NCBI RefSeq assembly: GCF_001647285.1
Contig: NZ_LRML01000001.1
Location: 496,001 to 560,000 of the forward strand
Reading direction: 5' to 3'
Source: Rufibacter roseus
GTDB taxonomy: Bacteria > Bacteroidota > Bacteroidia > Cytophagales > Hymenobacteraceae
DNA length: 64,000 bases
Under the pieces are notes generated by a model. It worked only from the letters and a program-made list of their open reading frames with translations. It was not told the origin of the DNA and made no database searches. A program made the position numbers and the translations under genes. Shown in pieces: positions 1,174 to 54,121 of this stretch (its first letter is position 1; every line of letters starts with the position of its first letter).

Positions 1174-4100
1174 CTAGCGCATTATGGTTATTGACTTCTT
1201 AAGCAGGGGTTGGGCGTTCCCCAGATCAATGGTGCAGTAGTAGGTGCCATTTGGCAACGGCTGGCCATTGTAAGTTCCGTCCCATGGTTTCCTATATCCC
1301 TTCGATTCAAACACTGGGCTTCCCCAGCGGTTGTACACTGTGATTTTGCAGTTAGGGTATAGGGTGGAGATATTCTTGATTTCCCACAGGTCATTCAAAC
1401 CATCACCGTTTGGAGAGAAACCGGTAGGGATTTCAAAGTCTTGGCTGGCTTCAATAGTGAAGTTGACCTCAGTAGTACAACCGTTTTTGTCTTTCACCAC
1501 TAGCAGGTGGGTACCTTCACTCAGGTTGTGAAAGACAGAGTCAGTGGTAAATCTTCCCTTGTCTAGCTGGTAGGTGTAAGGAGCGGTACCGCCGCCAACA
1601 AAAGTAACCGCAGCGCTGCCTGTTGAGCTGGCGGCAACGGTATTAGATAAGGCGGTTACTTTTACTTGAATAGGCTTAGGCTCTTTGATCTCTACTGTGC
1701 CAAGGTTAACTGTACACTCTGGAGAGAATCTGACAAGAACCTGATAACTGCCGCCTGCCAAGTTTGTAAACACAGAATCTTTCAGGAAAGTACGGCCGTT
1801 GTCAATGCTGAATTCTGCTTTGCCTTCTCCGCCTTTGGTAGTTACTGAAATGGAACCATTGGCCTGACCTGAGCAGAGTGCATCCTGCACTAAAGCTATT
1901 TTGCTTTCTACTTTCTTGATCAGAACCGAGGTGGAGTAGGTGCAGTTATTGGCGTCTTTCACCGTTAGTTGGTAGGTGCCAGGTGCCAACCCAGTAAGGG
2001 TAGCTGAAGCAGAGAAACGAGTGCCGTCTGTGGAGTACGTGTAAGGAGCAGTGCCGCCAGTTACTTCTTTCACAACTACCTGGCCGGTGGTCTGGCTGCA
2101 GCCTGCTGCCTGGGTAGTGAAGATTACTCCCGTGATGGCGGAGCTGTTGCCAAGGTTAATTTCCTTTGTCTTCACACAACCCGCGGCATCTTTTACAGTT
2201 ACCACATGCTTGCCTGAGGCCAACCTAGTGAACTCTGGGTTAGTCTGGAAGTTACTGCCATCAATACTGAAGGTGTAAGGACTTCGGCCGCCGCTTATCT
2301 GACTAACTATGATAGTGCCATTGTTAGTCCCGCAAGTGGCGTCTGTGTTGGTCAAGGTGAAGCTTTCCGCTCCCCCGCTGCCTTTCACTTCATGGCTTTG
2401 GGTGAAGGTACAACCTGCTGCATCTTTGATGGTGATGGTATAGTTGCCAGTACCTAAGTTGCTAAATACCGCAGCAGATTGGAAGCTAATTCCGTTGATG
2501 CTGTAGGCAAGTGGAAGTGTACCACCCGTTACAGATTCTACGTTGATAGATCCGTTGTTCTGGGCGCAGTTAGCTGAAACAGAAGAAAGTGTTGCCTTCG
2601 TTATTTTGTTTTCTGTTACAGTTACACTAGAGGTAAACACACAGCCATTCGCATCTTTCACGAACACCTGATAGGCCTGCGGCGAAAGAACTGTGAAGGT
2701 GCTGGAGGTTTGGTAGCTGACTCCATCAAGAGAATAAGCATAAGGCGCCTTGCCGCCGGTAGTGGAAGTTACTTTGAAAGATCCTTTCTCAGAGCAAGTA
2801 GCCGGTGTGGTTGAAGTGGTAATAGCGGTGACACCTGCCAAGTTGGAAACAGACACTTCCTTGGTGATGGTACATCCGCTGGCGTCTTTCACGGTAAGGG
2901 TATGAAGTCCCTCCGCTACCTCATTAAATGTGGTTTGGCTTTGGAAAGCTGCTCCGTTAAGTGAGTAAATGAAGGGTGCTGTGCCACCACTTATTTCTCC
3001 AATACTGATGCTGCCATTGCGGTTGCCACAGGTGGAGGCAGTAGTGGTGTAAGCGAAATCAGTTGGTCCGCTAATACTTTCTACTTCAATGGATTTAGAG
3101 TAAGTGCAGCCGTTGGAATCCTTCACTACAATGGTATAGGAGCCGGCTGTCAGCGCCGTGAAGGTGCCGGTTTCTTGGAAATTAACGCCGTCTTTGCTGT
3201 AGGTATAAGGTGCTACGCCCGCGACCACATTGGTTACAGTAATTTGCCCGTTGGCCTGTCCGCAGGAGGAGGACAGTTGAGTTAGCGTAATATCTGTTGG
3301 CCCTTCAGTACCTGATATAGTGACTTCAGTTGAGTATGTGCAGCCATTGGCATCTTTCACGGTAATGGCGTATGCGCCTGCTGTAAGGCCACTATAGAAA
3401 GCACTTGATTGGAAGTTGACCCCGTCTTTGCTGTAGGTGTAAGGGGCTGTGCCGCCAATAACCGCTGTTACCGTTACCGTTCCGTTGCTGTTGTTGCAGG
3501 TAGTACCAGTAACCGCCGCGGCCACGCTTTCTATGCCCTTCAAATCTTTTACCTGCACCTGGTCTGCAAACTCACATCCTTTGGCATCTAGCACGGTCAC
3601 TTTGTAAGTGCCTGCAGAAAGATTGTCAAAAGAGGCTGAAGAGGTGAATGTAGATCCGTCTATTGAATATTTATAAGGGGCGGTGCCTCCATTGATGGTG
3701 GTTATACTAATGCTGCCGTTGCCATTGCCACAGGTAGAAGGTGCTACGGAGGTGGTGAAAGCAGACGGAGCCGTTTTAGCGACAGTAGCTACTTCCGTGG
3801 TTAAACACCCGTTTGCGTCTTGAACAGTTACACTGTAGGTGCCAGAAGCAAGACCTGTAAAGGAAGCGCTACTCTGGAAAGAAAGACCATCAAGAGAATA
3901 GGCATAAGGGGCAGAGCCTCCGCTTACCTCTTTCACTGTAATGGCACCATCTCTGTCAGAACAGCTGGCAGGAGTGGTGTCTACTGTTGCCGCAGTAGGT
4001 CCGGCCAAGTCTTGCAGAAGCATCTCTTTAGAGAAGGTGCATCCGTTGCCGTCTTTCACTGATAAAGTGTGTGTGCCAGCTTGTAAGGCGGGAAAGGAAG

Positions 4101-7100
4101 TAGAGTGTTGGAAGGGTCCTCCGTTAATGCTGTAGGTGTAAGGAGCAACGCCTCCGGTTACTAATTCTACCGTTAAACTTCCGTTGTTCCCCCCGCAAGT
4201 AGAAGGTTGGGTGCTGACGGTAATACCAGTAGGTCCAGTGACATCAGTTACAGTTACGGTTTCTGCATAAGTGCAACCATTGGCATCGCGCACGGTCACC
4301 ACATGTTTTCCGGCAGTTACCGCGGTAAAGGTGGTTTCGTCCTTGAACTCTTTACCGTCTAAAGAGAAGGTAAATGGTGCTGTTCCGCCCTTCACTGTAG
4401 TTACCATTACGGTGCCGTTGTTGCTTCCGCAGGTAGCAGTAGTGCTCGCCAGTTCTAAACCAGCAGGGCTCGCAATGTCATTTACTGAAGCCTGTTTGGA
4501 AAAGGTGCAGCCGTTGGCATCTTTAACCGTGATGGTGTAGGTGCCTGCAGTTAAGGCAGTAAATACAATAGCATCCTGAAAGACAGAACCGTTAATGCTG
4601 TACGTGTACGGAGCAGTGCCTCCTGTTACAGTAGCTACCTGAAGCTGTCCATTAGCAGATCCGCACGTGCTTGCTTGTGCAGAGACAATAAAGTCAGTAG
4701 GGCCAGCCTTGTCTTCTATTACCACCACCTCAGTTGACATGCAGCCAGTGGAGTCTTTTACGGTAATAGAATACGTTGCCGCAGTGAGTGCCGTGAACGT
4801 AGCAGAAGTTTGAAAGTGAACGCCGTCTATGCTGAATGAATAAGGAGCAGTGCCGCCTCTTGTTTCAGCGATTGTTATTTTGCCGTTGCTGTTTCCGCAG
4901 GTGCTTGGTACTACCGTTGCGGTGAAAGCTGGTCCGGCAACATTGTTGACAGCAACTGCCTTTGAATAGGTGCAGCCATTCGCATCTTTCACTGTGATGA
5001 TATGCGAGCCTGCGCTCAGATTCTGAAAAGTAGCAGAAGCTTGGAAGCGCTGTCCATCTTGGCTATAAGTATATGGTCCAGTTCCTCCAGTAACCGAAAG
5101 AATGGTGATTGTTCCGTCACTGTTTCCGCACCTTGTTTCGGTGGTGGAAACAGTAAATGCCGTTGGTGCATTTTGCCCAACTCTTACCCCCGATGCAAAC
5201 TGACAACCATTGGCATCTTTCACCGTGACGGTGTACAAGCCTGCTGCCAATCCTGAGAACGAACCGCTCTCCTGATAAGTGGAGCCATTGATAGAGTAGG
5301 TAAAAGGAGCAGTTCCGCCGGTTACATTGCTTACCGTAATACTGCCGTCGCTGTTGGTGCAGTTAGCAGGTTGGGCAGCAGTTGTCATTGTGGTTGGTCC
5401 GGCAATGTTTGAAACTTCTGCTTTCTGCGTGTAGGTGCAACCGTTGGCGTCTTTCACATAAACTTGGTAGGTATTGGCTGCAAGTGCCGTGAAAGTGACA
5501 GATGTCTGAAAGTTTACGCCATCTATGCTATAGGTGTATGGTGCTGTGCCGCCGTTCACTCCGTTTACAGTGATGCCGCCATTGGCACCGCCGCAGGTAG
5601 AAGGAGAGCTTGTAAGAGTTAAGGCAGCAGGTCCAGTCACATATTCCACTTCTGCTGTTTGGCTAAAGGTACAGCCATTGGCATCTTTCACGGTAAGGGT
5701 GTAGGTGTTGGCAGCCAAAGCTGAGAAAGAAGCAGATGATTGGAACTGGACACCATCTACACTATAGCTGAACGGAGCGGTTCCTCCCGTTACTTCTCTT
5801 ACTTCAAGCTGTCCGTTGGTGCCGCAGATGGCAGGTTTAGACGCTATTCTAACTTCAGTTGGACCGGCAATGTCTTCCAGTAACACCTGCTTCACAAAAG
5901 AACATCCGTTAGCGTCTTTCACGGTTACAGTAAAAGTGCCTGAACGTAACCCAGTAAATGTGGAAGAATTTTGAAAGACAGTTCCGTTGAGGGAGTAGGT
6001 GAAAGGAACCGTGCCGCCGTCAACGTTGCGAATGGAAATACTGCCGTTGCTATTGCCACAGGTTGACGCCTGTACTGAAGAGGTGAAATCTTGTGGGCCA
6101 GGGGTGTTGGTAATCTGAATTTGGCCAGCAAAAGTACAGCCATTGGCATCTTTTACTGTGATAGTGTAAGTGCTCGCTACCAAGCCAGTAAGAGTGGCAG
6201 AAGATTGGAAGTTTTTACCATCAAGGCTATACGAATAAGGGCTCGTGCCACCAGTTATATTTAGAATGGTAATACTTCCATTGCTATTGCCGCAAGTAGA
6301 GGCTACCGTTGTAGCGTCAAAAGCAGTAGGAATGTTCTTAGAAACTTTAACAGAGGCGGTGACGAGGCATCCGTTGGTGTCTTTAGCAGTTACTGTGTAC
6401 GTGCCACTTGAAAGTGCTGTAAAGCGGTTGTATTCCTGAAAAGTAACTCCATCCAGAGAATAAACAAAAGGAGCAGTGCCTCCTGTTACAGTATCAACGA
6501 TAATGCTGCCGTCATTGTCAGCACAGGTGGCCGGAGAAGAACTGGCTGTTACTGCTGCCGGACCATTGATGTTGTTGATGACAAATGACTTGTTAAAGGT
6601 ACATCCGTTCGCATCTTTCACAAACAAGGTATGGGTGCCTGCAGCTAAAGCGGTAAAAGTAGGAGAGGGTTGGAAGTTCACTCCGTCTCTGCTGTAGCTA
6701 TAAGGGGCAGTTCCACCTGTTATTTTGGTTAGGGTAAGGGCACCGTTGCTGTTTCCGCAGATAGAAGCGCTTATTTCAGCGGTCAGGTCAGTAGGTCCGG
6801 CTACGTTGGTAACGGTAGCTTTTTTAGTGAAGACACAACCGTTTGCGTCTTTCACAGTGACAGTATGTTCTCCGGCCGTAATAGGGGCAAAGGCAGTACT
6901 GCTTTGGAAAGAGCCACCATTTAGTGCAAATGAATAAGGAGCTACTCCACCGGTTACTCCTCTTACGGTGATGGTGCCGTTGCTGGCGCCGCAGGTAGAA
7001 GCTGCCGTTGCCAACGCCAGATCAGTTGGCCCGTAAATATTTTCTAGTTGCACTTCTTTGTTGAAAGTACAGCCGTTGGCGTCTTTGACGGTGATGGTGT

Positions 7101-10100
7101 GGTTGCCTGCGGGTAAAGATGTAAAGGCTGCAGAGTTTTGGAAAGCAGCGCCGTTTATGCTGTAAGTGTATGGGCTAGTGCCTCCCGCTACTGAGCTGAT
7201 GTTAATGCTGCCATTGCTACTGCCGCAGGTAGAGGAAGATACTGCCAACGTTAGATCAGAAGGTCCGGCAATGTCTTTTACCTCTATTTCCTCTGATGAT
7301 AAGCAGCCTTTGGTATCTTTTACCATGATCAGGTACACACCCGCGCCCACTGTCATGAATGTGGCAGATGATTGGAAATTAGTACCGTCTATGCTATAGA
7401 GATAAGGAGCGGTGCCTCCTGTTACTCCTTTTACTGTAATGGCTCCATTGGTATTGCCGCAGGTGCTGGCAGTAGCTGTAACCGTAAACGCAGGCCCAGC
7501 AGTGTTGCTCACCGATACGCCTTTGCTGTAAGTGCAGCCCTTCGCATCCCGAACACTGATGGTGTGTGTGCCAGCTAATAAACCAGTAAATGTAGAGTTG
7601 CTTTGGAAGACACCGCCATCAATGCTGTACTGATAGGGAGCGGTGCCACCGGTAACAGTTCCAACAGTGATGGTTCCATCATTGCGCCCGCAAGAAGTTT
7701 CAGTGGTGGAGAACGTAAAGGCAGTTGGCACATTTTGCCCTACCGTTACTTGTGTAGAAACAAGGCATCCATTGGCATCTTTGGCGGTGATGGTGTATGT
7801 GCCTGAAGATATACCTGCATAAATGATTTCTGTCTGAAAGTTTGTATTGCCTATGGAGTAGGTGTAAGGAGCAGTGCCGCCTGTCACGCCGGAGATTGAA
7901 ATACTTCCGTCGTTATTTAAACAGCTGGCAGAACTAGAAACTGCTGTGATAGCTGATGGGCCTGGAACATCTCGTACGGCAACCTGCTGAGCAAATGTGC
8001 AGGCATTGGCATCTTTAACATAAATGGTATAGGTGCCAGCAGCCAGTTCAGTAAAGGTGGCGGAAGCTTGGAAATTTACCCCGTCTTTACTGTAGCTGTA
8101 AGGCGCTGTGCCACCCGTAACGCTATTCACGCTCAAGGCACCGTTGCTTCTTCCGCAAGAGGAGGAAACAGTGGTGGAAGCCAGTGCGGTTGGGCCAGAC
8201 AGGTTTTCTACTCTTACTTTCTTTGTAAAGGAACAGCCATTCGCATCTTTTACTGTAACAGTGTGCTCTCCTGCCGGAACTCCCGTATAGGTGGCATTCG
8301 TTTGGAATTCTTGTCCGTTGAGCGAGTAGGTGTAGGGTGCCATTCCTCCGCTTACCCCTTCCACTTTGATAGACCCGTTGCTGGCACCGCAGGTGGAAGC
8401 TTGGTTTGACATAGCAATGTCACGTGGCCCAGCCTGATCTGTTACCTCAATGGTTTTCGAAAAGAGGCAGCCATTGGCATCTTTCACCAAGATAGAATAT
8501 GTGCCGGCGATGAGGTTCTCAAAGGTGGCTGAAGCCTGAAACTGAACTCCGTCTTTGCTATAGGTAAAGGGAGCAGTTCCGCCATTGACAGATTCAATCA
8601 TCACCCTGCCGTTACTGGCGCCGCAAGTTGAGGCAACGACAGTGGATTCTACACCTTGAGGGCCTGCCACATCTTCAATAACAACTAATTTTGTATATGT
8701 GCAACCGTTGGCGTCTTTAATTGCCACTGTGTGCTGGCCTGCCTGTAACTGATTGAATGTAGCGGAAGTTTGATAGTTCGTTCCGTCAAGGCTATAGGTA
8801 TAAGGAGAAGTTCCGCCTGTTACCTCTGTTACTGTTAGCGCTGCATTGCTGTAACCACAGGTAGAAGAGCTGGTGGAAACATTTGCCTCAGTAGGGCCAG
8901 CTACATTGTTTAAAACTACTGATTTAGTAAACGTACAGCCTTTTGCATCTTTCACCGTGATGGTGTAGGTGCCGGCGGCTAGACTGCTGAAAGTGCTGGA
9001 GGCTTGAAAATTTATGCCGTCTTGGCTGTAGTAATAAGGAGCCGTGCCTCCGGTAACTGAAACAACAGTAAAAGTGCCATTGTTGCGGCCACAGGTAGAT
9101 GCTACTGTAGAAGTGGTAAAGCCGGTAGGTACGTTCTTTTTAACAACAACAGCCGTGGTAACTAAACAACCGTTGGCATCTTTTGCAGTAACGGTGTAGT
9201 TGCCGGAAGCAAGGACTGTAAAAGCGGTTCCGGTTTGGAAAGCAGTACCATCTATGGAATAGGAATAAGGAGCAGAGCCACCCGTTACTCCTGTCACTTT
9301 TATTTCCCCGTCATTGTTCAGGCAGCTGGCAGATGCAGTAGAGGCCGTTACTGCTGTTGGGCCAGCTATGTCAGATAACCTTACTTCTTTGGCATAAACA
9401 CAACCGTTGGCGTCTTTCACAGTGAACATGTAAGATCCTGCTTTTAGGGAAGTGAAAGTGGCAGAAGCCTGAAAGTGGATGCCATCTTTGCTGTAACTAA
9501 AAGGAGCTGTCCCGCCAGAAACATTACCGATGTTAATGGAGCCATTGTTGCCGCCGCAGGTTGATGGAGTGAGGCTGGCGGTAAAACCCGATGGCCCTGC
9601 CACGTCCCTAACAGAAACCTGGCGGGTAATGGTACAGCCGTTCGCATCTTTTACGGTGACAGTATAAGTGCCCGCAGACAGACCTGCTAAAGTAGCCGAT
9701 GCCTGAAAAGTAGTGCCATTGGTGCTGTAGGAGTAAGGGGCTGTGCCACCTATTACAGACGTGACGGTAACGCTTCCATTACTGGAGCCACAGGTAGATG
9801 AAGCGGCTGTTAAACTTATCTCAGTAGGGCCTGCAATGTTCTCCAGTAAAACTGTTTTAACAAAAGTACACCCATTGGCGTCCTTGATAGTTAGTAAATG
9901 TTGCCCAGCGGATAACCCGGAAAAAGAAGCAGAGCTTTGAAAGGCAGCTCCGTTTAGACTGTAGGTATATGGTGCCGTTCCGCCAGTGACGCTAGCTACT
10001 GCTATAGTTCCGTTTTTGGTTCCGCAAGTAGTGGCTTTAGTAGTGAGGGCAGCGTCTGAAGGGCCAGCAATATTGTTAACTGTAAAAGCCTTGGAGAAAC

Positions 10101-12429
10101 TACAGCCGTTGGTGTCTCTGACAGTAATAGAATAAGTGCCTGCTGCTAAAGCCTGGAAAGAGGAAGCTGTCTGGAATGCTCCTCCGTTCAAACTATAGGT
10201 ATAGGGCGCAGTACCACCAGTAGCGGCAATGCTTAGCGTTCCGTTGCTGTTTCCGCAAGTAGAAGACGTAATGGAGGCAGTGAGGTCAGAAGGACCAGCT
10301 ATGTTACCAATGACTATGGAGCGGGAGGTGATACAACCGTTCGCATCTTTCACTGTGATCGTATAAGTGCCGGCGGCAAGCGCTGTGAAAGTGCCCGTCT
10401 CCTGAAAAGAAACGCCGTCCTTACTGTAGGTGAAAGGTGCAGTTCCGCCTGTCACTGAGGTGACGGTGATGCCGCCATTGCTAGCGCCACAGGTGCTGGA
10501 AGAAGTGTTGAAAGCGAAGGTAGTGGGACCTGGTGCACTGCCCACCACTACTGTTTTGGTGAAGAGGCAGCCGTTCGCATCTTTCACTGTAATAGTATAA
10601 GACCCAGAGGCTACTCCGGAAAAAGTATTAGTGCTTTGGAAAGTTACGCCGTCTTTGCTGTAAGTAAAGGGTGCCTGGCCATTTATAACGTTAGAAACAG
10701 TAATGCTTCCGTTGCTGTTGCCGCAAGTAGTACTGGTGGTGGAAGTGGTAAAACCGGTAGGGCCCGAAATATTTTGTAAAATATACGTGTTGCTGTACAC
10801 GCAGCCATTGGCGTCTTTCACGCTGATGGAGTAGGTGCCAGCAGAAAGAGCGGTATAACTAGTGGCACTTTTGAATTCTGAGCCATTCAAGCTGTACAAA
10901 TAAGGAGCTCGTCCTCCGGTAACACCATTTATTTGCAGTGAACCATTGCTGTTACCACAGGTAGAAGGGGTGGAGGTGATTGTAACAGCTGATGGGCCTG
11001 CTTCCTCGCTTACTGTAAATGATTTCTGAATTGAGCATCCTTTCGCATCGGTAGCGGTCACTGTATAAGTGCCGGCAGCTTTGTTTGAAACAGTAGCAGT
11101 GGTTTCGCCGGTGTTCCATTGATAGGTGATAGGCGCCTGCCCTCCTGTAGTTGCAGCTGTGATGGTGGCCGTAGAGCCTGCGCAAATAACTGCTGGGCCT
11201 GTGAAGGTAAGGTTAAATTGGTAAAAGGAAATCAGTACTTCATCTGAAATAGGGGAGCAGGTGCCGTTGACAGTGGTTGTGAGGGTAAGTTTTACCTTGC
11301 CTGCCGCCAATTCACTGGCAGTAGGGGTGTAGGTGGCGTTCAATGAAGTGTTATTTGGGGAGAAAGAACCTGCACCCCCACTCCAGATGCCGCCAGTGGC
11401 AGCCGTAACAGAACCTGTTAACGACACTGGGCTTGTGGTACAAATTAATTGGTCTGGACCTGCATTCACTGACAAATCTGTGACAACCGTAACAGAAGCC
11501 TCAAACTTTTTACAGTTAGGGTAGTTTTCAGTTCTAACTTCGAGAAAATATTCACCTACCGTAGGAGCTATATAGTTTTTTGTAGTGGCCAATAGCTGCC
11601 CACTTTTATTTGTCCAGAAGTAGCTGAAGTTTCCGCTGCCGCCAGTAACATTTCCGGTTAACTCAACGCCTGTTGAGCCGGGGCAAATAATGGCAGGGGT
11701 GGGGCTGATAGAAACTATTGGGGCAGGGAAAAAGTAAACCCGCACCGTGTCACAAAAAGGGAGATCTGAGCAGGGTGAAGCTACTGAACTACCGCACACC
11801 ACGTAGTCAACAAACGCAGGAGCGTTGTCGTCTGGGGTTATGGTTGGGGTAGCGCAACCTGAGGTGCAACTCAAATACTTGTTGTAGGCACCGCCGCCTG
11901 TTATATCTGTCCAGGTGATGGATGCTTCTTCAAACGCTATGGGAGCCTGTAAAACAGAAGAACATCCACCTGAAATTTTTACGTCTGGGACAGGAGTAAA
12001 AGCGGCAATGGACTTTACCTGAAAGCTATTACTGGCACCGCCAGGCATGCAAATGGTGAGCACATGGGGGCCAACACCAGATACGCAGATGGGTTGCCCT
12101 ACTGGTACGGGTGGTCCGCAATCTATCTGATAGGCCATGGCGCCGGAAGGTACTGGTCCGCCCGTAATGCTGAACTCCAGCCCTCCCGCATTTTTGTCAA
12201 GGGTTATGTTGAACTGAATGCAGTTTTCGTTGCCTTTAGCGCCACAAATGCTGCCATTGCGGCTTAGATCTCCTGAATTCCAGATGCCATTGGGTTGACC
12301 TGTAAGGTTAACTTCATGTACCGGTACACTGTTCCCTTGCGCATGCAATTGCAATGGAGCCATATAAAGCATCCAAAGTAGGAGGAGAGGAAATGCGTAA
12401 GTTATTTTTTGAGTAAAGGTTCTTTCCAT
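1174..12429 (-). CDS. Giant SprB-repeat cell-surface adhesin with gliding-motility-type C-terminal domain
   Basis: This is a secreted protein of about 3,750 residues. A signal peptide (MERTFTQKITYAF, hydrophobic run, LQLHAQ) supports the ATG at 12,427-12,429 rather than one 63 bp upstream. Residues to about 470 hold non-repeated and PKD-like modules, including a segment beginning VNAGPDQLICTTSPVSLTG. From about residue 475 to 3,600 lie about 40 SprB repeats of 75-78 residues, each with STCGNSNG, VTGGTAPYTYS, DG..FQ and GTYTITVKDANGC. The last 85 or so residues (IPTGFSPNGDGLNDLWEI ... NRWG ... PWDG ... NGTYYC) are the gliding-motility-associated C-terminal domain, the type B signal of type IX secretion. 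The paired cysteines of each repeat suggest intra-repeat disulfides. A surface adhesion or gliding role is inferred from SprB. The porP/sprF-like gene follows 30 bp downstream. Confidence 0.95.
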   Translation of the reverse strand: MERTFTQKITYAFPLLLLWMLYMAPLQLHAQGNSVPVHEVNLTGQPNGIWNSGDLSRNGSICGAKGNENCIQFNITLDKNAGGLEFSITGGPVPSGAMAYQIDCGPPVPVGQPICVSGVGPHVLTICMPGGASNSFQVKSIAAFTPVPDVKISGGCSSVLQAPIAFEEASITWTDITGGGAYNKYLSCTSGCATPTITPDDNAPAFVDYVVCGSSVASPCSDLPFCDTVRVYFFPAPIVSISPTPAIICPGSTGVELTGNVTGGSGNFSYFWTNKSGQLLATTKNYIAPTVGEYFLEVRTENYPNCKKFEASVTVVTDLSVNAGPDQLICTTSPVSLTGSVTAATGGIWSGGAGSFSPNNTSLNATYTPTASELAAGKVKLTLTTTVNGTCSPISDEVLISFYQFNLTFTGPAVICAGSTATITAATTGGQAPITYQWNTGETTATVSNKAAGTYTVTATDAKGCSIQKSFTVSEEAGPSAVTITSTPSTCGNSNGSLQINGVTGGRAPYLYSLNGSEFKSATSYTALSAGTYSISVKDANGCVYSNTYILQNISGPTGFTTSTTSTTCGNSNGSITVSNVINGQAPFTYSKDGVTFQSTNTFSGVASGSYTITVKDANGCLFTKTVVVGSAPGPTTFAFNTSSSTCGASNGGITVTSVTGGTAPFTYSKDGVSFQETGTFTALAAGTYTITVKDANGCITSRSIVIGNIAGPSDLTASITSSTCGNSNGTLSIAATGGTAPYTYSLNGGAFQTASSFQALAAGTYSITVRDTNGCSFSKAFTVNNIAGPSDAALTTKATTCGTKNGTIAVASVTGGTAPYTYSLNGAAFQSSASFSGLSAGQHLLTIKDANGCTFVKTVLLENIAGPTEISLTAASSTCGSSNGSVTVTSVIGGTAPYSYSTNGTTFQASATLAGLSAGTYTVTVKDANGCTITRQVSVRDVAGPSGFTASLTPSTCGGNNGSINIGNVSGGTAPFSYSKDGIHFQASATFTSLKAGSYMFTVKDANGCVYAKEVRLSDIAGPTAVTASTASASCLNNDGEIKVTGVTGGSAPYSYSIDGTAFQTGTAFTVLASGNYTVTAKDANGCLVTTAVVVKKNVPTGFTTSTVASTCGRNNGTFTVVSVTGGTAPYYYSQDGINFQASSTFSSLAAGTYTITVKDAKGCTFTKSVVLNNVAGPTEANVSTSSSTCGYSNAALTVTEVTGGTSPYTYSLDGTNYQTSATFNQLQAGQHTVAIKDANGCTYTKLVVIEDVAGPQGVESTVVASTCGASNGRVMIESVNGGTAPFTYSKDGVQFQASATFENLIAGTYSILVKDANGCLFSKTIEVTDQAGPRDIAMSNQASTCGASNGSIKVEGVSGGMAPYTYSLNGQEFQTNATYTGVPAGEHTVTVKDANGCSFTKKVRVENLSGPTALASTTVSSSCGRSNGALSVNSVTGGTAPYSYSKDGVNFQASATFTELAAGTYTIYVKDANACTFAQQVAVRDVPGPSAITAVSSSASCLNNDGSISISGVTGGTAPYTYSIGNTNFQTEIIYAGISSGTYTITAKDANGCLVSTQVTVGQNVPTAFTFSTTETSCGRNDGTITVGTVTGGTAPYQYSIDGGVFQSNSTFTGLLAGTHTISVRDAKGCTYSKGVSVSNTAGPAFTVTATASTCGNTNGAITVKGVTGGTAPYLYSIDGTNFQSSATFMTVGAGVYLIMVKDTKGCLSSEEIEVKDIAGPSDLTLAVSSSTCGSSNGSINISSVAGGTSPYTYSINGAAFQNSAAFTSLPAGNHTITVKDANGCTFNKEVQLENIYGPTDLALATAASTCGASNGTITVRGVTGGVAPYSFALNGGSFQSSTAFAPITAGEHTVTVKDANGCVFTKKATVTNVAGPTDLTAEISASICGNSNGALTLTKITGGTAPYSYSRDGVNFQPSPTFTALAAGTHTLFVKDANGCTFNKSFVINNINGPAAVTASSSPATCADNDGSIIVDTVTGGTAPFVYSLDGVTFQEYNRFTALSSGTYTVTAKDTNGCLVTASVKVSKNIPTAFDATTVASTCGNSNGSITILNITGGTSPYSYSLDGKNFQSSATLTGLVASTYTITVKDANGCTFAGQIQITNTPGPQDFTSSVQASTCGNSNGSISIRNVDGGTVPFTYSLNGTVFQNSSTFTGLRSGTFTVTVKDANGCSFVKQVLLEDIAGPTEVRIASKPAICGTNGQLEVREVTGGTAPFSYSVDGVQFQSSASFSALAANTYTLTVKDANGCTFSQTAEVEYVTGPAALTLTSSPSTCGGANGGITVNGVNGGTAPYTYSIDGVNFQTSVTFTALAANTYQVYVKDANGCTYTQKAEVSNIAGPTTMTTAAQPANCTNSDGSITVSNVTGGTAPFTYSINGSTYQESGSFSGLAAGLYTVTVKDANGCQFASGVRVGQNAPTAFTVSTTETRCGNSDGTITILSVTGGTGPYTYSQDGQRFQASATFQNLSAGSHIITVKDANGCTYSKAVAVNNVAGPAFTATVVPSTCGNSNGKITIAETRGGTAPYSFSIDGVHFQTSATFTALTAATYSITVKDSTGCMSTEVVVIEDKAGPTDFIVSAQASTCGSANGQLQVATVTGGTAPYTYSINGSVFQDAIVFTALTAGTYTITVKDANGCTFSKQASVNDIASPAGLELASTTATCGSNNGTVMVTTVKGGTAPFTFSLDGKEFKDETTFTAVTAGKHVVTVRDANGCTYAETVTVTDVTGPTGITVSTQPSTCGGNNGSLTVELVTGGVAPYTYSINGGPFQHSTSFPALQAGTHTLSVKDGNGCTFSKEMLLQDLAGPTAATVDTTPASCSDRDGAITVKEVSGGSAPYAYSLDGLSFQSSASFTGLASGTYSVTVQDANGCLTTEVATVAKTAPSAFTTSVAPSTCGNGNGSISITTINGGTAPYKYSIDGSTFTSSASFDNLSAGTYKVTVLDAKGCEFADQVQVKDLKGIESVAAAVTGTTCNNSNGTVTVTAVIGGTAPYTYSKDGVNFQSSAFYSGLTAGAYAITVKDANGCTYSTEVTISGTEGPTDITLTQLSSSCGQANGQITVTNVVAGVAPYTYSKDGVNFQETGTFTALTAGSYTIVVKDSNGCTYSKSIEVESISGPTDFAYTTTASTCGNRNGSISIGEISGGTAPFIYSLNGAAFQSQTTFNEVAEGLHTLTVKDASGCTITKEVSVSNLAGVTAITTSTTPATCSEKGSFKVTSTTGGKAPYAYSLDGVSYQTSSTFTVLSPQAYQVFVKDANGCVFTSSVTVTENKITKATLSSVSANCAQNNGSINVESVTGGTLPLAYSINGISFQSAAVFSNLGTGNYTITIKDAAGCTFTQSHEVKGSGGAESFTLTNTDATCGTNNGTIIVSQISGGRSPYTFSIDGSNFQTNPEFTRLASGKHVVTVKDAAGCVKTKEINLGNSSAITGVIFTTQAAGCSQTTGQVVVKEVTGGTAPYTYSTDGTRFSASATLTGLAPGTYQLTVKDANNCTYSTSVLIKKVESKIALVQDALCSGQANGSISVTTKGGEGKAEFSIDNGRTFLKDSVFTNLAGGSYQVLVRFSPECTVNLGTVEIKEPKPIQVKVTALSNTVAASSTGSAAVTFVGGGTAPYTYQLDKGRFTTDSVFHNLSEGTHLLVVKDKNGCTTEVNFTIEASQDFEIPTGFSPNGDGLNDLWEIKNISTLYPNCKITVYNRWGSPVFESKGYRKPWDGTYNGQPLPNGTYYCTIDLGNAQPLLKKSITIMR
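1640..11005 (-). repeat. Array of about 40 in-frame SprB repeats (about 233 bp each)
   Basis: I count 39-41 tandem units by eye. Most begin GP(T/S) and contain a TCG.(S/N)NG motif and a DANGC motif. Variant units with the motif ASCLNNDG or a relative (ATCADNDG, ANCTNSDG, ASCSDRDG) fall at units 8, 14, 20, 25 and 31, near nt 9,325, 7,925, 6,525, 5,360 and 3,965. Each is followed by a unit beginning PT(A/G)F or PSAF. This 5-6-unit spacing shows that the array grew by copying blocks of units, not only single units. Confidence 0.9.
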
Positions 12430-12492
12430 ATGCGAAGAGTTTTTGATCCTGTTCAAATCTGTAATGAGGTGCGCTGAAAGATTACCATTCAA

Positions 12493-20302: not shown

Positions 20303-20342
20303 CTTGTCAGAATTCTTAATGAGATAGTTGTAGAAAGAAAAG

Positions 20343-20384
20343 GCTGTTTTAGGCCTGCTTTTTGAAAAACAAGCCTAAAACAGC
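20343..20384. repeat. IP palindrome copy 5
   Basis: The arms GCTGTTTTAGGCCTG and AAGCCTAAAACAGC surround CTTTTTGAAAAAC, nearly perfect. It lies between two tandem genes, 20 bp beyond the restored stop of the lactonase gene. Confidence 0.85.
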
Positions 20385-27226: not shown

Positions 27227-27371
27227 GAGTTCTGAGTTCTGAGTCTTGAGTCTTGAGTCAACATCTTAAAGAGACCCAGAATTCTTAACTTAGAATGAAT
27301 GAAAACTATATTGATTCTGAGCCTTAAGCTCTGAATTTAAATCTTTTACAGACTCAAGACTCAGAACTCAA
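27227..27371. repeat. H7 heptad repeat, two inverted arms between atpD and atpC
   Basis: The left arm is five heptads GAGTTCT, GAGTTCT, GAGTCTT, GAGTCTT, GAGTCAA (27,227-27,261). The right arm is GACTCAA, GACTCAG, AACTCAA (27,351-27,371). The right arm is the reverse complement of the left in type and lies 4 bp from the atpD stop. The 90 bp between them contain weaker heptad-like sequence. Confidence 0.8.
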
Positions 27372-36541: not shown

Positions 36542-36547
36542 TACCTC

Positions 36548-36586
36548 CGTTTTAGGACTGTTTTGGAGAAATGAAGCCTAAAACAC
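36548..36586. repeat. IP palindrome copy 13
   Basis: The arms CGTTTTAGGACTG and AAGCCTAAAACAC surround TTTTGGAGAAATG. It follows the rplY terminator. Confidence 0.7.
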
Positions 36587-36630
36587 ATAAGGTGAAATTT
36601 TCCAATAATCAGTTTTAAAACGCATTTAAG

Positions 36631-36842
36631 ATACCTCCCTTTGAAGGGGCGAGGGGAATGTTTATACCTGCCGGTACATGCATTTTTGATACTCCCCTCT
36701 TTGGAAAGGCGGGGGCAAGTTCCACTCATTCTGTATCTTCCATGGTCATCCTGGGCACTAGCCGAAGGATCTAACGAAGATGTACCATTGTAGGCAGCAA
36801 TGTATTAGCCACCGCAATGGACAGGTCGCGACCTGTCCGTAC
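36631..36842. repeat. Diverged relative of the 47.8-kb composite element
   Basis: Two degenerate copies of the G/C-rich end (CTCCCTTTGAAGGGGCGAGG at about 36,634, and CTCTTTGGAAAGGCGGGGG at about 36,697) are followed by TAGCCACCGCAATGGACAGG and a CCTGTCCGTA. This order matches the inner part of the element at 47,827-48,068 (TGGCCACCGCAGCGG, CCTGTCCGTAAA). A perfect 20-bp palindrome GGACAGGTCGCGACCTGTCC lies at 36,820-36,839. No coding sequence is seen. Confidence 0.6.
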
Positions 36843-37192
36843 ATTTTTCCGCTCCCGAGCTTTAGTAGCAACTGCTTATCCAAGGCCTCACAGGACAGCC
36901 TTCTCCGTCTCTTTGGCGCTGAGCGCTCACGGCCGCGAGGCCCTGCCCTGTGGATTCGCACTGCCCTTTTCACTAGACCTTCGGTCTTGCCGCTGCCGCG
37001 GCACCGCTCAAAGCGAGGCGCTCACCCCCACGGCTGGTATCAGTTCCAATTCTGCTGCCTGTGATTTTCCTGATTTGAAGTTATTGGTTTATTATTTCTG
37101 TAGTTCCTTGGTAGAGTTACCCGCGATGCGCGCATCACCTTTTATTTGGTATAGAGATAGGAGCTTCCTAATATATTTCATTAGTGAACCAT
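36843..37192. other. Non-coding stretch without a recognised gene
   Basis: This stretch is GC-rich to about 37,060 and then AT-rich. It holds overlapping open frames on both strands but none with protein-like composition; the translations are rich in Arg, Ser, Pro and Cys. Short palindromes such as GCCGCTGCCGCGGC are present. It may be the remains of a mobile or structured element joined to the one at 36,631. Confidence 0.45.
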
Positions 37193-37230
37193 GTTTTTGA
37201 CTTTTTTTCAGGAAATCAGGCCAAAAACGC
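37193..37230. repeat. Degenerate IP palindrome copy 14
   Basis: A weak GTTTTTGACTTTT left arm and a good right arm CAGGCCAAAAACGC. It overlaps the stop end of the aminotransferase gene, so its right arm encodes the last residues. Confidence 0.55.
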
Positions 37231-40980: not shown

Positions 40981-41793
40981 ATGATTCAATTTCCGAACGC
41001 AAAGATTAATCTGGGTCTTCAGTTGGTGGAGAAACGGCCAGACGGCTTCCATAACCTGGTATCTTGTTTTTACCCGGTAGGCTGGTCTGATGCCTTGGAA
41101 ATTCTACCTGCTAACGACGAGCCTTCGTTTACCTTGTCTGGACTTCCTGTACCCGGGGAGCCAAAGCAAAACCTTTGTTGGAAAGCGTATGAATTGTTGC
41201 GGAAGGAATACCAGTTGCCACCCATTAAAATGCACCTGCACAAGGTCATACCTATGGGCGCGGGTTTGGGAGGCGGCTCCGCCGATGCCGCTTTCACGCT
41301 CAAGATTCTGAACAGCACCTTTGACCTAGGTTTATCAGACGAGATTCTTCAGAATTACGCCCGCCAGTTAGGCAGCGACTGTGCCTTCTTCGTTAAAAAC
41401 GAACCGGTGCTGGCAGTAGAGAAAGGTGATGTGTTTGAAGAAATCAATCTGGACCTGAAAGGGTGGCACATTGTGCTAGTGTACCCCAACTTGGCTATTA
41501 GCACCGCTGAGGCTTACGCGGGGGTAGTGCCACGCACTCCTGAAAAAGATTTAAGATCGCTACTGAAGCAGGACCCGATAACCTGGAAAAATGAAGTGGT
41601 GAATGACTTTGAGCTGAGCCTCTTCCCCAAATACCCGGTGCTGGGAGAGTTAAAGGAACAGTTGTACCAAATGGGAGCGGTGTGCGCATCTATGTCTGGT
41701 TCCGGCTCTACCGTTTTCGGCCTGTTTTCCGGAAATCAGCCCGAAAACGTGAGTTTCCCAGCAGAATACTCAGTTTGGCAGGGCACTCTTTAG
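40981..41793 (+). CDS. ispE: 4-diphosphocytidyl-2-C-methyl-D-erythritol kinase
   Basis: This 270-residue GHMP kinase of the MEP isoprenoid pathway phosphorylates CDP-ME. MIQFPNAKINLGLQLVEKRPDGFHNL is the family start, so the ATG at 40,981 is preferred over one 27 bp upstream. The GHMP ATP motif PMGAGLGGGSADAAF is at about residues 92-106, and SMSGSGSTVFGLF near 236-248 is the second glycine loop. The sequence for VFGLFSGNQPENV is an IP palindrome read as coding DNA. The end of the gene overlaps that of the convergent EamA gene by 24 bp. The enzyme looks intact. Confidence 0.95.
   Translation: MIQFPNAKINLGLQLVEKRPDGFHNLVSCFYPVGWSDALEILPANDEPSFTLSGLPVPGEPKQNLCWKAYELLRKEYQLPPIKMHLHKVIPMGAGLGGGSADAAFTLKILNSTFDLGLSDEILQNYARQLGSDCAFFVKNEPVLAVEKGDVFEEINLDLKGWHIVLVYPNLAISTAEAYAGVVPRTPEKDLRSLLKQDPITWKNEVVNDFELSLFPKYPVLGELKEQLYQMGAVCASMSGSGSTVFGLFSGNQPENVSFPAEYSVWQGTL
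41712..41749. repeat. IP palindrome copy 16, inside the ispE coding region
   Basis: The arms CGTTTTCGGCCTG and CAGCCCGAAAACG surround TTTTCCGGAAAT. It is read in frame as part of the ispE C-terminus and is the only clear copy within a conserved gene. Confidence 0.85.
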
Positions 41794-42714: not shown

Positions 42715-42742
42715 TGAAGAAGGAGCAATTAAGTTTCTGTGT

Positions 42743-42781
42743 TGTTTTAGGCCTGTTTTTGTGAAATCAAGCCTAAAACAG
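42743..42781. repeat. IP palindrome copy 17
   Basis: The arms TGTTTTAGGCCTG and AAGCCTAAAACAG surround TTTTTGTGAAATC, in the tandem gap upstream of the EamA gene. A second hairpin TGGCGCAAGCG/CGCTTGCGCCA follows at 42,803-42,828. Confidence 0.8.
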
Positions 42782-45928: not shown

Positions 45929-47065
45929 TTGTTTTCAGATTTACCCATTTTAGCTCAATATTTGCCATTAAGTCTGCTCGGGCTTATAGTGCTGATTCAG
46001 TTTTTTTATGAGTTTTATTATTTTCTGCCGCTCGCTTTCTATAAAGATCCAGCGCCAGCACGGGCAGAAGATCTGCCGCCGCTGTCTATTTTGGTGGCCG
46101 CCCATAATGAAGTAAAGAACCTGCAGGAACTGTTGCCAATGCTGGTACAGCAAGAGTATCCGGCGCCTTTTGAAATTATCATCATAGATGACCGCTCCTG
46201 GGACGGCACCCACGTGCTGGTGAAGGAGTACATGCTGGAGCACCCGCAGGTTAAGTTGGTGCGGGTAAAAGAAGAGGCGCGGTACATGAGCCATAAAAAA
46301 GTGGCGTTGTTTCTGGGCATAAAAGCGGCACAGAATGAGCACCTACTGTTCACAGACGCTGACTGCAGACCTGTTTCTGCCCAATGGGCGCAACGAATGG
46401 CCGCAGGATTTTCAGCAGGTGGGGATATCATTTTGGGCGTTTCTCCGTATATGCGTATATATGGATTCTTAAATCATTTAATCCGTTTTGAAACCTTCTT
46501 GACGGCAATGCAGTATCTGTCGTTTGCCAAGAAGGGGAGAGCGTACATGGGAGTGGGCCGAAACTTAGCCTACACCAAAACCACGTTCTTACGGAATAAA
46601 GGTTTTGCCAGCCATATCAGATCTGTAGGCGGTGATGATGACTTGTTTGTGCAGGAAGCCGCCAAACATTCTGCCGTTCAGATTGTCATTGAGAAAGACG
46701 CGCAAACAGAAAGTGCCCCCGAGACGCGGTGGCTCAGCTGGTGGAAACAAAAAAGAAGACATTTAGCCGCCGGAAGGCACTATAAGAAAAAAGCACAGTT
46801 CAGAATCGGACTTTTTGTCCTGTCTAACATACTGTTTTATGTAATATCAGGAGTTCTTTTGGGGGTTCAGTACCAATTGCACTGGGTTGGCGTTATTATT
46901 GGAGTGAGGTATGTGGCACTATATTGCACATATCTGCCAGTAGCCCGCCGGTTACATGACCCACTTAAATGGTGGCTGTTGCCTGTACTGGAACTGGGGT
47001 ATTACCTCAATTATATAGGGATTGGAATCTCTGTTCTAACGACTAAAAAGGTAAGATGGAAGTAA
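45929..47065 (+). CDS. Membrane glycosyltransferase, family 2
   Basis: This is a protein of about 378 residues. An N-terminal hydrophobic helix (PLSLLGLIVLIQFFYEFYYF) precedes a GT-A domain: PPLSILVAAHNEVKNLQELL, EIIIIDDRSWDGT with the nucleotide-binding Asp, HLLFTDADCRP as the DxD-like motif, and GGDDDLFVQEA near 235. A run ETRWLSWWKQKRRHLAAG matches the (Q/R)xxRW end motif. Two or three C-terminal helices follow. It would add sugar to a lipid or polymer at the inner membrane; the acceptor is unknown. The frame opens at TTG (45,929) with no nearby ATG, so a non-ATG start is likely. It overlaps the sigma-factor gene by 10 bp. Confidence 0.88.
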   Translation: MFSDLPILAQYLPLSLLGLIVLIQFFYEFYYFLPLAFYKDPAPARAEDLPPLSILVAAHNEVKNLQELLPMLVQQEYPAPFEIIIIDDRSWDGTHVLVKEYMLEHPQVKLVRVKEEARYMSHKKVALFLGIKAAQNEHLLFTDADCRPVSAQWAQRMAAGFSAGGDIILGVSPYMRIYGFLNHLIRFETFLTAMQYLSFAKKGRAYMGVGRNLAYTKTTFLRNKGFASHIRSVGGDDDLFVQEAAKHSAVQIVIEKDAQTESAPETRWLSWWKQKRRHLAAGRHYKKKAQFRIGLFVLSNILFYVISGVLLGVQYQLHWVGVIIGVRYVALYCTYLPVARRLHDPLKWWLLPVLELGYYLNYIGIGISVLTTKKVRWK

Positions 47066-47664
47066 ACAAGCAATTCTCCGCGAAAGCGAAACACGATTTT
47101 AAACTGATTCAGTCGGCCGTGGAAGATGGGGATGAGAAGGCATATGCAGAGCTGATGCAGATATACAAAAAGCCGGTTTATCACGTGGTGCTCAAGATGG
47201 TGCGTAACGCCGATGACGCCGAAGACCTCACCATCGAAGCTTTTGCGAAAGCCTTCCGTAACCTGCACAAGTTCAACCCCGAGTATGCCTTCAGTACCTG
47301 GCTTTTCCGTATCGCCACGAACAACTGCATCGACTTCATCCGGAAGAACAAGATCAAAACGATGAGCATTGACTCCGCCATCAAGATTGACAACGGCGAC
47401 GAGATCACCATCGACTTTAAAGACAACAACCTGAACCCGCAGGAGACGGCTATCAAAAACCAGAAAATCGAGATCATGCAGTACATCGTGAGCAAACTGC
47501 CTGATAAGTACCAGCGCCTCGTGACCCTCCGTTATTTTGATGAACTCTCCTATGAAGAAATAGCCACTGAATTGAGTGCCCCGCTAGGAACCGTAAAAGC
47601 CCAGCTTCACCGCGCCCGCGAGTTGCTCTATGACATGGTGAAAAATAAGAAACACTTGATTTAG
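47056..47664 (+). CDS. ECF-type RNA polymerase sigma factor
   Basis: This 202-residue sigma-70 family factor has region 2 at about residues 25-100 (YAELMQIYKKPVYHVVLKMV, ADDAEDLTIEAFAKAFRNL, FSTWLFRIATNNCIDFIRK) and region 4 at about 135-195 (LPDKYQRLVTLRYFDELSYEEIATEL, GTVKAQLHRARELL). The linker is acidic (DNGDEITIDFKDNN). Its start overlaps the glycosyltransferase stop by 10 bp, so the two are coupled. No anti-sigma gene (FecR or zinc-binding type) is next to it, unlike most ECF loci in this phylum, so its control is unclear. Heptad repeats, then a 24-bp-stem terminator, begin directly after the stop. Confidence 0.93.
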   Translation: MEVNKQFSAKAKHDFKLIQSAVEDGDEKAYAELMQIYKKPVYHVVLKMVRNADDAEDLTIEAFAKAFRNLHKFNPEYAFSTWLFRIATNNCIDFIRKNKIKTMSIDSAIKIDNGDEITIDFKDNNLNPQETAIKNQKIEIMQYIVSKLPDKYQRLVTLRYFDELSYEEIATELSAPLGTVKAQLHRARELLYDMVKNKKHLI

Positions 47665-47710: not shown

Positions 47711-47755
47711 AAAACACCAGAAGCAGCCCGAGGGCTGCTTCTGGTGTTTTAGGTC
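47706..47755 (+). terminator. Perfect 50-bp palindrome, terminator of the sigma-factor gene
   Basis: GACCTAAAACACCAG AAGCAGCCC pairs without error with GGGCTGCTTCTGG TGTTTTAGGTC around GA (24-bp stem). Its right side also supplies the left arm of the next IP palindrome. Confidence 0.8.
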
Positions 47756-47783
47756 TGTTTTTGCGACATTAAGCCGAAAACGC
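47744..47783. repeat. IP palindrome copy 18
   Basis: The arms GTGTTTTAGGTCTG and AAGCCGAAAACGC surround TTTTTGCGACATT. It overlaps the perfect 50-bp palindrome by 12 bp. Confidence 0.65.
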
Positions 47784-47826: not shown

Positions 47827-48068
47827 AGCAGATTCCCCCCTTTGAAGGGGGCGAAGGGGGATGTATACAGGAGAGACACGTATTGCTGATCTGTAGGGGC
47901 GTATAGCATACGCCCTGCTTAGTTATTGATGATGTTCTATTGCAGGCGGAACACGTTGGCCACCGCAGCGGAAAGGTAAAGCCCTGTCCGTAAACAGAAA
48001 TGGTTGGAACACCATGCCCGGCAGGTGTAAACATCCCCCCTTCGCCCCCTTCAAAGGGGAAGTCTGCT
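47827..48068. mobile_element. MITE-like composite element with about 38-bp terminal inverted repeats
   Basis: The left end (AGCAGATTCCCCCC, then TTTGAAGGGGGCGAAGG, GGGATGT) and the right end (ACATCCCCCC, TTCGCCCCCTTCAAAGG, GGAAGTCTGCT) are inverted copies. The 242-bp unit has no coding capacity. Inside are GGGCGTAT AGC ATACGCCC (47,897-47,915) and TGGCCACCGCAGCGG followed by CCTGTCCGTAAA. A diverged relative is at 36,631-36,842, and a right end alone at 53,889-53,935. No flanking duplication is clear. Confidence 0.65.
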
Positions 48069-48106
48069 TATAATAGGCGTAAAAGGAGAAGCTTTAAATA
48101 TAAAAT

Positions 48107-48145
48107 CGTTTTCAGCCTAAATTTTAGAAAACAACGCAAAAACGC
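48107..48145. repeat. Degenerate IP palindrome copy 19
   Basis: The arms CGTTTTCAGCCTA and CAACGCAAAAACGC surround AATTTTAGAAAA. It lies between the composite element and rsmG. Confidence 0.55.
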
Positions 48146-48166
48146 ACCTCCTGCACTTACTTCAAA

Positions 48167-48201
48167 ACTCAAGACTCAGAACTCGAGACTCAGGACTCTT
48201 T
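48167..48201. repeat. H7 heptad repeat array (5 units)
   Basis: ACTCAAG, ACTCAGA, ACTCGAG, ACTCAGG and ACTCTTT lie just upstream of rsmG. The same heptad type (ACTCAAG/ACTCAGA) occurs between atpD and atpC. Confidence 0.85.
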
Positions 48202-48218: not shown

Positions 48219-48860
48219 ATGAACGCGAACTCCGTCGATATTCTTCTCCAATATTTTCCAGATCTCACTCCTGAGCAACAGCAGCAGTTTTCGCAGCTGG
48301 TGGAGTTGTACGGGGAATGGAACTCCAAAATCAATGTCATCTCCCGCAAAGACATGGACAACCTGATGGTGAACCATATTCTGCACTCGCTGGGCATTGC
48401 CAAAGTGGTACAGTTCCCGGCGGGTACCAGCGTAATGGACGTGGGAACGGGCGGCGGATTGCCAGGGTTGCCATTAGCCATTCTGTTCCCCGAGGTGAAG
48501 TTTCATTTGGTAGATTCCATTGGCAAGAAGATTCACGTGGTGCAGGAGATTGCGCACGAGCTGAAATTACATAATGTGAAAGCCAGCCATACCCGCGCTG
48601 AGCAGGTGCATGAGAAGTATGACTATATAGTGAGTCGTGCGGTGGCCAGATTGGCTACTTTCTACCAGTGGATTCAGTTTAGCTTCAAGAAAGAGAGCGT
48701 GCCGGAGCAAGGGCTGTATTATCTGAAAGGCGGTGATTTAGAAGAAGAACTAGCCGAGGCAGGGCTGGTGCATGAGGTATTTGAACTGAACAGTTACTTC
48801 AACGAAGAGTTCTTTGAAACCAAGAAAGTGGTGTTCGTGCCCCAGCACCCAACGGCGTAA
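48219..48860 (+). CDS. rsmG: 16S rRNA (guanine-527-N7)-methyltransferase
   Basis: This 213-residue methyltransferase modifies G527 of 16S rRNA with SAM. The ATG at 48,219 (MNANSVDILLQYFPDL) is preferred, because the open frame upstream to 48,000 is repeat DNA with no protein character. Blocks are FSQLVELYGEWNSKINVISRKD, HILHSLGIAK, the SAM motif VMDVGTGGGLPGLPLAILFP at about residues 72-91, VDSIGKKIHVVQEIA, and DYIVSRAVARLATF. Standard length. It stands alone between repeat-rich gaps. Confidence 0.95.
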   Translation: MNANSVDILLQYFPDLTPEQQQQFSQLVELYGEWNSKINVISRKDMDNLMVNHILHSLGIAKVVQFPAGTSVMDVGTGGGLPGLPLAILFPEVKFHLVDSIGKKIHVVQEIAHELKLHNVKASHTRAEQVHEKYDYIVSRAVARLATFYQWIQFSFKKESVPEQGLYYLKGGDLEEELAEAGLVHEVFELNSYFNEEFFETKKVVFVPQHPTA

Positions 48861-48863
48861 ATC

Positions 48864-48902
48864 TATTTTTGGCCTGTTTTCTGGAAAACTGTCTTAAAAC
48901 GC
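48864..48902. repeat. IP palindrome copy 20
   Basis: The arms TATTTTTGGCCTG and CTGTCTTAAAACGC surround TTTTCTGGAAAA. It starts 4 bp after the rsmG stop. Confidence 0.75.
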
Positions 48903-48906
48903 ATTA

Positions 48907-49072
48907 TCGCTGTCCCTTCTCCTTAGGGGAGAAGGTTAGGATGAGGGGAAACTACGGTTCAAGCTGTAAAAGCAGCTATTCAAGGTAAGTTTAACAGCCT
49001 GAATTAGGCAAGAGGTATTGCTTCATAGCAAATGGTTGTCCCCTAACCCTCTACTCGAGGGAGAGGGGATAC
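48907..49072. mobile_element. Second MITE-like element with inverted G/C-rich ends
   Basis: The left end (TGTCCCTTCTCCTTAGG, GGAGAAGGTTAGGATGAGGG) and the right end (GTCCCCTAACCCTCTACTCG, AGGGAGAGGGGATA) are inverted relatives, about 165 bp overall, with no coding sequence between. A related single end occurs at 54,122-54,158 (CCCTAACCCTCTCCCTTGGG, GAGAGAG). Such ends resemble the common CCCTCTCC repeats of many bacterial genomes. Mobility is inferred only from the structure. Confidence 0.5.
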
Positions 49073-49078
49073 CGCTTT

Positions 49079-49117
49079 TCTGTTTTCAGCCTAATTTCTG
49101 AAAAACAGACTGAAAAG
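49079..49117. repeat. IP palindrome copy 21
   Basis: The arms TCTGTTTTCAGCCTA and CAGACTGAAAAG surround ATTTCTGAAAAA, next to the second MITE-like element. Confidence 0.65.
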
Positions 49118-49134
49118 AGCTAGGGCCATAAAAG

Positions 49135-53829: not shown

Positions 53830-53831
53830 GT

Positions 53832-53872
53832 GCTGTTTTAAGGCTGCTTTCTGAAAAATAGGCCGAAAACAG
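53832..53872. repeat. IP palindrome copy 23
   Basis: The arms GCTGTTTTAAGGCTG and TAGGCCGAAAACAG surround CTTTCTGAAAAA, directly after the MFS stop. Confidence 0.75.
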
Positions 53873-53888
53873 TTTTAGGAATGCGTGG

Positions 53889-53935
53889 ACCGGCAGGTGT
53901 AAACATCCCCCTTCGCCCCCTTCAAAGGGGGGAAT
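53889..53935. repeat. Solo right end of the 47.8-kb composite element
   Basis: CCGGCAGGTGTAAACATCCC followed by CCTTCGCCCCCTTCAAAGGG matches the right end of the 47,827-48,068 element, including the inner CCGGCAGGTGTAAACAT. No left end is found. Confidence 0.65.
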
Positions 53936-53982
53936 ATCTCCAAGAGTAGCAATGGGTATGGACAAACGCTTGATGAGGAAGT

Positions 53983-54020
53983 GCGTTTTTGGCCTGTTTT
54001 CTGAAAAATTAGCCTAAAAT
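53983..54020. repeat. IP palindrome copy 24
   Basis: The arms GCGTTTTTGGCCTG and TTAGCCTAAAAT surround TTTTCTGAAAAA. It is the second of three IP copies in one 445-bp convergent gap. Confidence 0.7.
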
Positions 54021-54121
54021 GGTAGCTCAATAGACTTCACAGCGTCTTCAAGACCTGCGAGCGTCTGTGCCAATAAGCGGGGAATTGGAGAATTTTGAGG
54101 CTTTTGTTTCATAGTTACCGT

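Follow-up and report, generated by a model that had tools for sequence, protein, structure and literature searches.

A non-coding mosaic of palindromic repeats in Rufibacter roseus, probably of BIME/REPIN-like character

The element and its intergenic slot

The window, i.e., the whole 64,000-nucleotide stretch of Rufibacter roseus DNA analysed here, contains a 242-bp element between what we take to be an ECF-type sigma factor gene and what is presumably an rsmG-like gene (Table 1). Self-matching aligned positions 47,827-47,869 with 48,026-48,068 as inverted copies of 43 nt that are 89% identical, and the inner 24 nt (47,837-47,860 and 48,036-48,059) are perfect; no gene lies in the element, and the inverted ends around a gene-free interior that were noted in the preliminary description are thus real. 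Both ends belong to a 60-bp unit, here named E, which consists of a CCCCCTT/AAGGGGG hairpin and, after two bases, a third AAGGGGG followed by ATGTTTACAC and a tail, and which is preceded mostly by GATACT or AGCAGATT. In the interior, GTAG at 47,893 directly precedes a 19-bp palindrome (47,897-47,915), beside which lies a GGACAGG/CCTGTCC module; the foot of the E hairpin lacks GTAG, the tag being found only on the interior hairpin. Folded as single-stranded DNA, the element reached -62.7 kcal/mol (z -8.05), and as RNA a z of -7.17, neither fold being equalled by any of 200 shuffles. By blastn, the full 242 bp is present once in the R. roseus genome.

Table 1. Features of the window that are discussed in the text.
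Feature	Position	Strand	Basis
Type-B mosaic: E, second degenerate E, TCATCC..GAAGGATCT hairpin, GGACAGG palindrome, long tail	36630..37150	+	
D9 left of type-B mosaic	36545..36585	.	
D9 right of type-B mosaic	37189..37229	.	
Presumed ECF-type sigma factor gene, left of slot	47056..47664	+	name assigned from sequence
D9 left of focal element	47742..47782	.	
Focal element (two inverted E units around a mosaic interior)	47827..48068	.	sequence, self-match, fold
Left E end	47827..47869	+	aligned E core 47836-47869
GTAG tag and 19-bp palindrome GGGCGTATAGCATACGCCC (GTAG-type REP-like hairpin)	47893..47915	+	sequence
Type-B module head (GCAGG..GGCCACCGCAGCGG..CCTGTCCGTA)	47939..47996	+	comparison with type B
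Right E end, inverted	48018..48068	-	E alignment
D9 right of focal element	48104..48144	.	
Presumed rsmG-like gene, right of slot	48219..48860	+	name assigned from sequence
D9 left of solo E	53831..53871	.	
Solo E unit	53878..53938	-	E alignment
D9 right of solo E	53981..54021	.	

Two relatives of the element had been described in the window. The one placed at 36,631-36,842 exists, but its extent had to be revised, as it is a mosaic of about 520 bp; the lone right end placed at 53,889-53,935 was found as described and is slightly longer.

The interval between the sigma factor and rsmG genes was compared in 16 Rufibacter genomes. That of G007 is 195 bp long and free of repeats, and in most of the others it is filled with differing palindromic repeats. 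E stands in the same orientation in G000, G001, and G012; because G000 and G001 are sisters, and G012 groups with G007 and G013, the left E may be an old occupant of this slot that some lines have lost, the rest of the mosaic having changed.

Short repeat runs resembling GACTCAGAACTC occur near genes at 48162-48198 and 27227-27370 of the window, and such runs lie upstream of rsmG in nearly all Rufibacter genomes compared. Elsewhere in the window, positions 1174-12492 on the minus strand form an 11.3-kb open frame of ~234-bp (78-codon) repeats.

Copies, arrangement, and host range of E

The R. roseus assembly comprises 5.12 Mb in 39 contigs. The focal element had 89 blastn matches in it, which were collapsed by hand to ~45 sites, and the exact E pattern is present at 40 sites. 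Allowing at most one mismatch, CGCCCCCTTCAAAG was found 34+31 times in the genome, whereas the reversed pattern was found 2+1 times, so the recurrence of E is not due to chance. The end sequence has many copies, and orthologous sites vary in presence between species, so that neither finding which would have spoken against the earlier proposal was made. A dispersed, mobile-looking non-coding repeat is supported.

Arrangements were counted over 37 distinct R. roseus loci (38 entries, two being of the same region). E forms one end of a ~380-630-bp mosaic at 19 of them and one end of a shorter repeated stretch at two, it stands alone at ten, and the remaining six are inverted doublets. The interiors of the doublets are other palindromic repeats that differ from one doublet to the next; by eye, the interior of one (L007) is a repeat that is also seen next to a Y1 gene (L063). 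When the six doublets are taken together with four close inverted pairs from other genomes, all 10 have their hairpins outward and none inward (p 0.002). The long mosaics are of two forms, each of ~500 bp and with a fixed order of modules: type A gave 29 long matches, most of which start with E and finish near the same place (14 aligned), and type B gave 14 in the R. roseus genome. Translating 15 elements of types A and B revealed no conserved open frame. The genes flanking E (n=36 loci) were convergent in 16 cases, in the same direction in 15, and divergent in four, and one case was open.

The preliminary description offered, as one of two readings, a MITE with inverted ends of about 38 bp. 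In a classical MITE, E would be the terminal inverted repeat of an element whose DDE-transposase gene has been lost, and the focal copy and five others do have inverted ends around a variable interior. However, 31 of the 37 loci are not doublets, and inspection of the focal copy by eye showed no target-site duplication. Three E pairs lie 1.6-2.5 kb apart, and the ORFs that they enclose, judged by eye, look like ordinary cellular genes with no transposase among them; E also has no match in the plasmid collection. We consider this origin highly improbable. The MITE label thus fits the focal copy but only 6/37 loci in its genome, and the E family is not a typical MITE. An IS or transposase with the same terminal repeats was not found in the loci examined. 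For the wide pairs, which contain only ordinary-looking genes, an E-ended IS was rejected, as was a plasmid origin of E, for want of a plasmid match.

The hairpins could alternatively be of use where they stand, as a cis-acting RNA or terminator (a structured 3' end or an attenuator) that is under selection for what it does to nearby transcripts. The focal element folds strongly, and E is found most often between convergent genes (16/36), but the same slot is empty or otherwise filled in relatives, and no Rfam family was found. The fold of type A is a string of short hairpins in which 3/97 pairs changed on both sides among the long relatives; we regard a cis-acting role as quite unlikely. Of the structured element suggested earlier, the chain of hairpins stood, but covariation is thin and a family assignment did not materialize. 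A known structured RNA was rejected as well, the Rfam matches being chance ones of miRNA type below gathering scores.

E is nearly confined to one genus. With the best 20 candidates at most scored per genome, matches were obtained in 15 of the 16 Rufibacter genomes (the exception being G003) and in one of 23 more distant relatives. The exact E 31-mer was present in 51 stretches of the genome collection, 50 from Rufibacter and one from Sabulibacter ruber. A looser pattern, a hairpin plus a third arm, was present in 12 of 295 further genomes of the phylum, with one to three occurrences in each, its reversed pattern in none, and CCCCCTTYRAAGGGGGATYAAGGGGGATG was read at four of ten listed loci of the looser pattern in other Bacteroidota. 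The E-like design may therefore extend beyond Rufibacter at low copy. Low-copy CCCCCTTYRAAGGGGGATYAAGGGGGATG motifs of other Bacteroidota (L218-L221) have a hairpin-plus-third-arm design like that of E. Overall, E units are scattered through intergenic DNA almost exclusively of this genus, and intergenic slots differ in such cargo between species. Searches of the open-licence literature with the E hairpin string found no paper, those for Rufibacter with repeat found no relevant title, and those for interspersed or intergenic repeats of Cytophagales found nothing; among the matches listed for AGGCCTGTTTT, all seemed unrelated, judging by title.

The D9 dyad and its repeat cargo

All three copies in the window, i.e., the focal element, the type-B mosaic, and the solo E, have on both sides a 38-bp dyad, TGTTTTAGGCCTGTTTTTCGAAAAACAGGCCTAAAACA, here termed D9. 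D9 is genus-specific, almost only intergenic, and far more abundant than E, at ~0.4 per kb or about one per 2.6 kb. With a scoring matrix, the window yielded 28 D9 and a shuffled version of it yielded none; a strong match at 41,709 is within a coding frame and is probably due to chance. With a covariance model, every one of 16 Rufibacter genomes yielded from 133 to at least 150 matches, compared with 0-2 per genome in 23 others. Similarity among D9 copies is higher within a genome (0.729) than between orthologous copies of different species (0.688), and none of 500 permutations reached the within-genome value; the D9 sequence is homogenised within each species, and its number is kept between sister species. 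Twenty-four window sites are listed, e.g., 20342-20382 and 42740-42780. Another inverted pair (CTCCTTAGGGGAGAAGGTTAGG / CCCCTAACCCTCT), at 48864-49118 of the window, likewise lies between two D9 dyads.

Three simple identities for D9 were rejected. Covariation was not clearly above that of shuffles (0.179 vs. 0.157, 51/500), which argues against an RNA hairpin, and pairing of this kind makes D9 look like a double-stranded dyad. Half sites resembling uptake sequences are excluded because 49 of 54 half-site matches are inside full dyads. Similarity between the two D9 of a pair does not significantly exceed that between unrelated D9 (0.727 vs. 0.709, p 0.055), so they do not appear to be a target duplication.

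The placement of D9 suggests a further reading, in which the unit that moves or is lost is whatever repeats lie between two D9, with E a frequent passenger; we hold this to be possible but doubtful. The mechanism that it calls for, a gain or loss of cargo through recombination at D9 with one D9 left behind, is to our minds similarly tentative. The sister species G007 and G013 were compared over 420 kb each. These stretches hold 172 and 155 D9, respectively, of which 158 and 141 are outside called ORFs, which make up 88% of the G007 stretch. The 182 orthologous intergenic pairs comprise 125 whose lengths differ by less than 100 bp, 37 with a difference of 200 bp or more, and 20 in between. D9 number is the same in 121 of the 125 pairs of similar length and changed in four, whereas it changed in 17 of the 37 that differ by at least 200 bp, where the longer member has more D9 in 15, an equal number in 20, and fewer in two; a change in D9 number is thus tied to a difference in length (p 1e-9).

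E and D9 are also associated in these two species. Of the 21 regions with E, 17 have two or more D9; among long regions that lack E, the figure is 19 of 115, these controls possibly including missed small genes. E is bracketed by D9 on both sides in 8/16 and 11/14 cases in G007 and G013, compared with 10% of random control positions; one further E, located inside an ORF, was left out of these counts. In addition, of the 15 genomes covered at one divergent-promoter slot, G007 and G013, which form a terminal clade, are the only two that have cargo there together with a second D9. Against this, D9 is on both sides of 10 of 36 E loci in R. roseus itself, which is not above the control of 0.31 (control positions taken from six window regions).

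Thirteen cases of one D9 vs. two or more were tested for their flanks. Two are precise, in that both outer flanks match and the inside does not: D9-cargo-D9 in one species corresponds to a single D9 in the other, the cargo being in G013 in one case and in G007 in the other, and each cargo contains E and a GTAG hairpin. The other 11 are not precise, and in three of these it was the inner side that matched. At none of the orthologous sites compared was a lone E or a doublet seen to be precisely excised; both clean cases of presence and absence involve the larger, D9-bounded cargo. An integron-like cassette system would flank its cargo with recombination sites and leave one behind when empty; here, 2/13 cases are precise, and the R. 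roseus genome is not enriched. The paired D9 are not significantly more alike, and no recombinase is known for D9; the cassette reading is attractive in the two sister species and unproven elsewhere. In its broadest form, Rufibacter chromosomes would have well over a thousand D9 (an extrapolated number) as attachment sites at gene boundaries, where patches of repeats, E included, would enter and leave as D9-bounded cassettes, while D9 would drift as a set in each species as if following one recognising protein; this we think unlikely. D9 is nonetheless a larger prospect than E and possibly the more unusual discovery, and if it is gained and lost with cargo, it would make a testable system for the gain and removal of intergenic DNA in bacteria.

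Candidate movers and known repeat systems

Six Y1_Tnp genes above the cut-off and one weaker match were found in the R. roseus genome (L061-L067). E was within 1.5 kb of none of 35 Y1 loci, comprising all seven of these and the 28 from relatives that were given a locus; a cognate transposase was thus not identified, and E as the REP of a RAYT was rejected. G007 has no Y1_Tnp match, yet its E copies are kept. Across 16 genomes, the numbers of Y1_Tnp and E matches, counted up to a cap, are weakly correlated (rho 0.52, p 0.04). By eye, the RAYT-like genes of R. roseus appear to adjoin differing hairpin repeats of their own.

REPs and REPINs are described, in PMC3116915 and PMC3733652, as short palindromic intergenic repeats in many copies, whose head-to-head doublets form long hairpins and whose single units are thought to be remnants. 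E is similarly short, palindromic, multi-copy, and intergenic, but it is without the GTAG foot, its doublets are a minority (6/37) and enclose long, variable stretches, and it flanks none of the RAYT genes examined. BIMEs (bacterial interspersed mosaic elements) combine intergenic palindromic units with other short motifs, according to PMC2817692 and PMC6006769; the E family likewise mixes palindromic units with other repeated motifs between genes, although its set of sequences differs and its type-A and type-B modules keep a fixed order over ~500 bp. Small MITE-like repeats such as ERIC and Correia, which according to PMC2229807 are non-coding, intergenic, at most hundreds of bp long, and provided with inverted ends, resemble the focal element in these traits, but the two-ended form is a minority of E loci, and no partner IS was found. 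Lastly, PMC6006769 reports repeats that adjoin TnpA_REP of subclasses 2.4 and 2.6, which are frequent in Bacteroidetes. The phylum is the same, and RAYT-like genes of R. roseus adjoin hairpin repeats by eye, but none of these repeats is E.

The focal element truly belongs to a family of mosaic palindromic repeats, and on balance, we think that it is a non-coding, Rufibacter-specific mosaic that is built from short palindromic repeats in the manner of BIMEs and REPINs and is probably moved in trans. A Y1-type enzyme would be the preferred mover, by analogy with REPINs (PMC3116915). In such a scheme, E hairpins would be recognised as single-stranded ends by a trans-acting enzyme, most likely an HUH/Y1-type transposase, as with REPs, and E doublets with whatever sits between them would be copied to other sites between genes. 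Units that stand alone and mosaics with E at one end would then be partial or decayed products, and any influence on the sigma factor and rsmG genes would be secondary. As a clear BIME/REPIN-like family in Bacteroidota without a visible cognate RAYT, E should be useful in asking what moves such repeats. At one RAYT-like gene of G001 (L194, 350-2373), seven D9 dyads occur within ~2 kb, in addition to the gene's own hairpin repeats.
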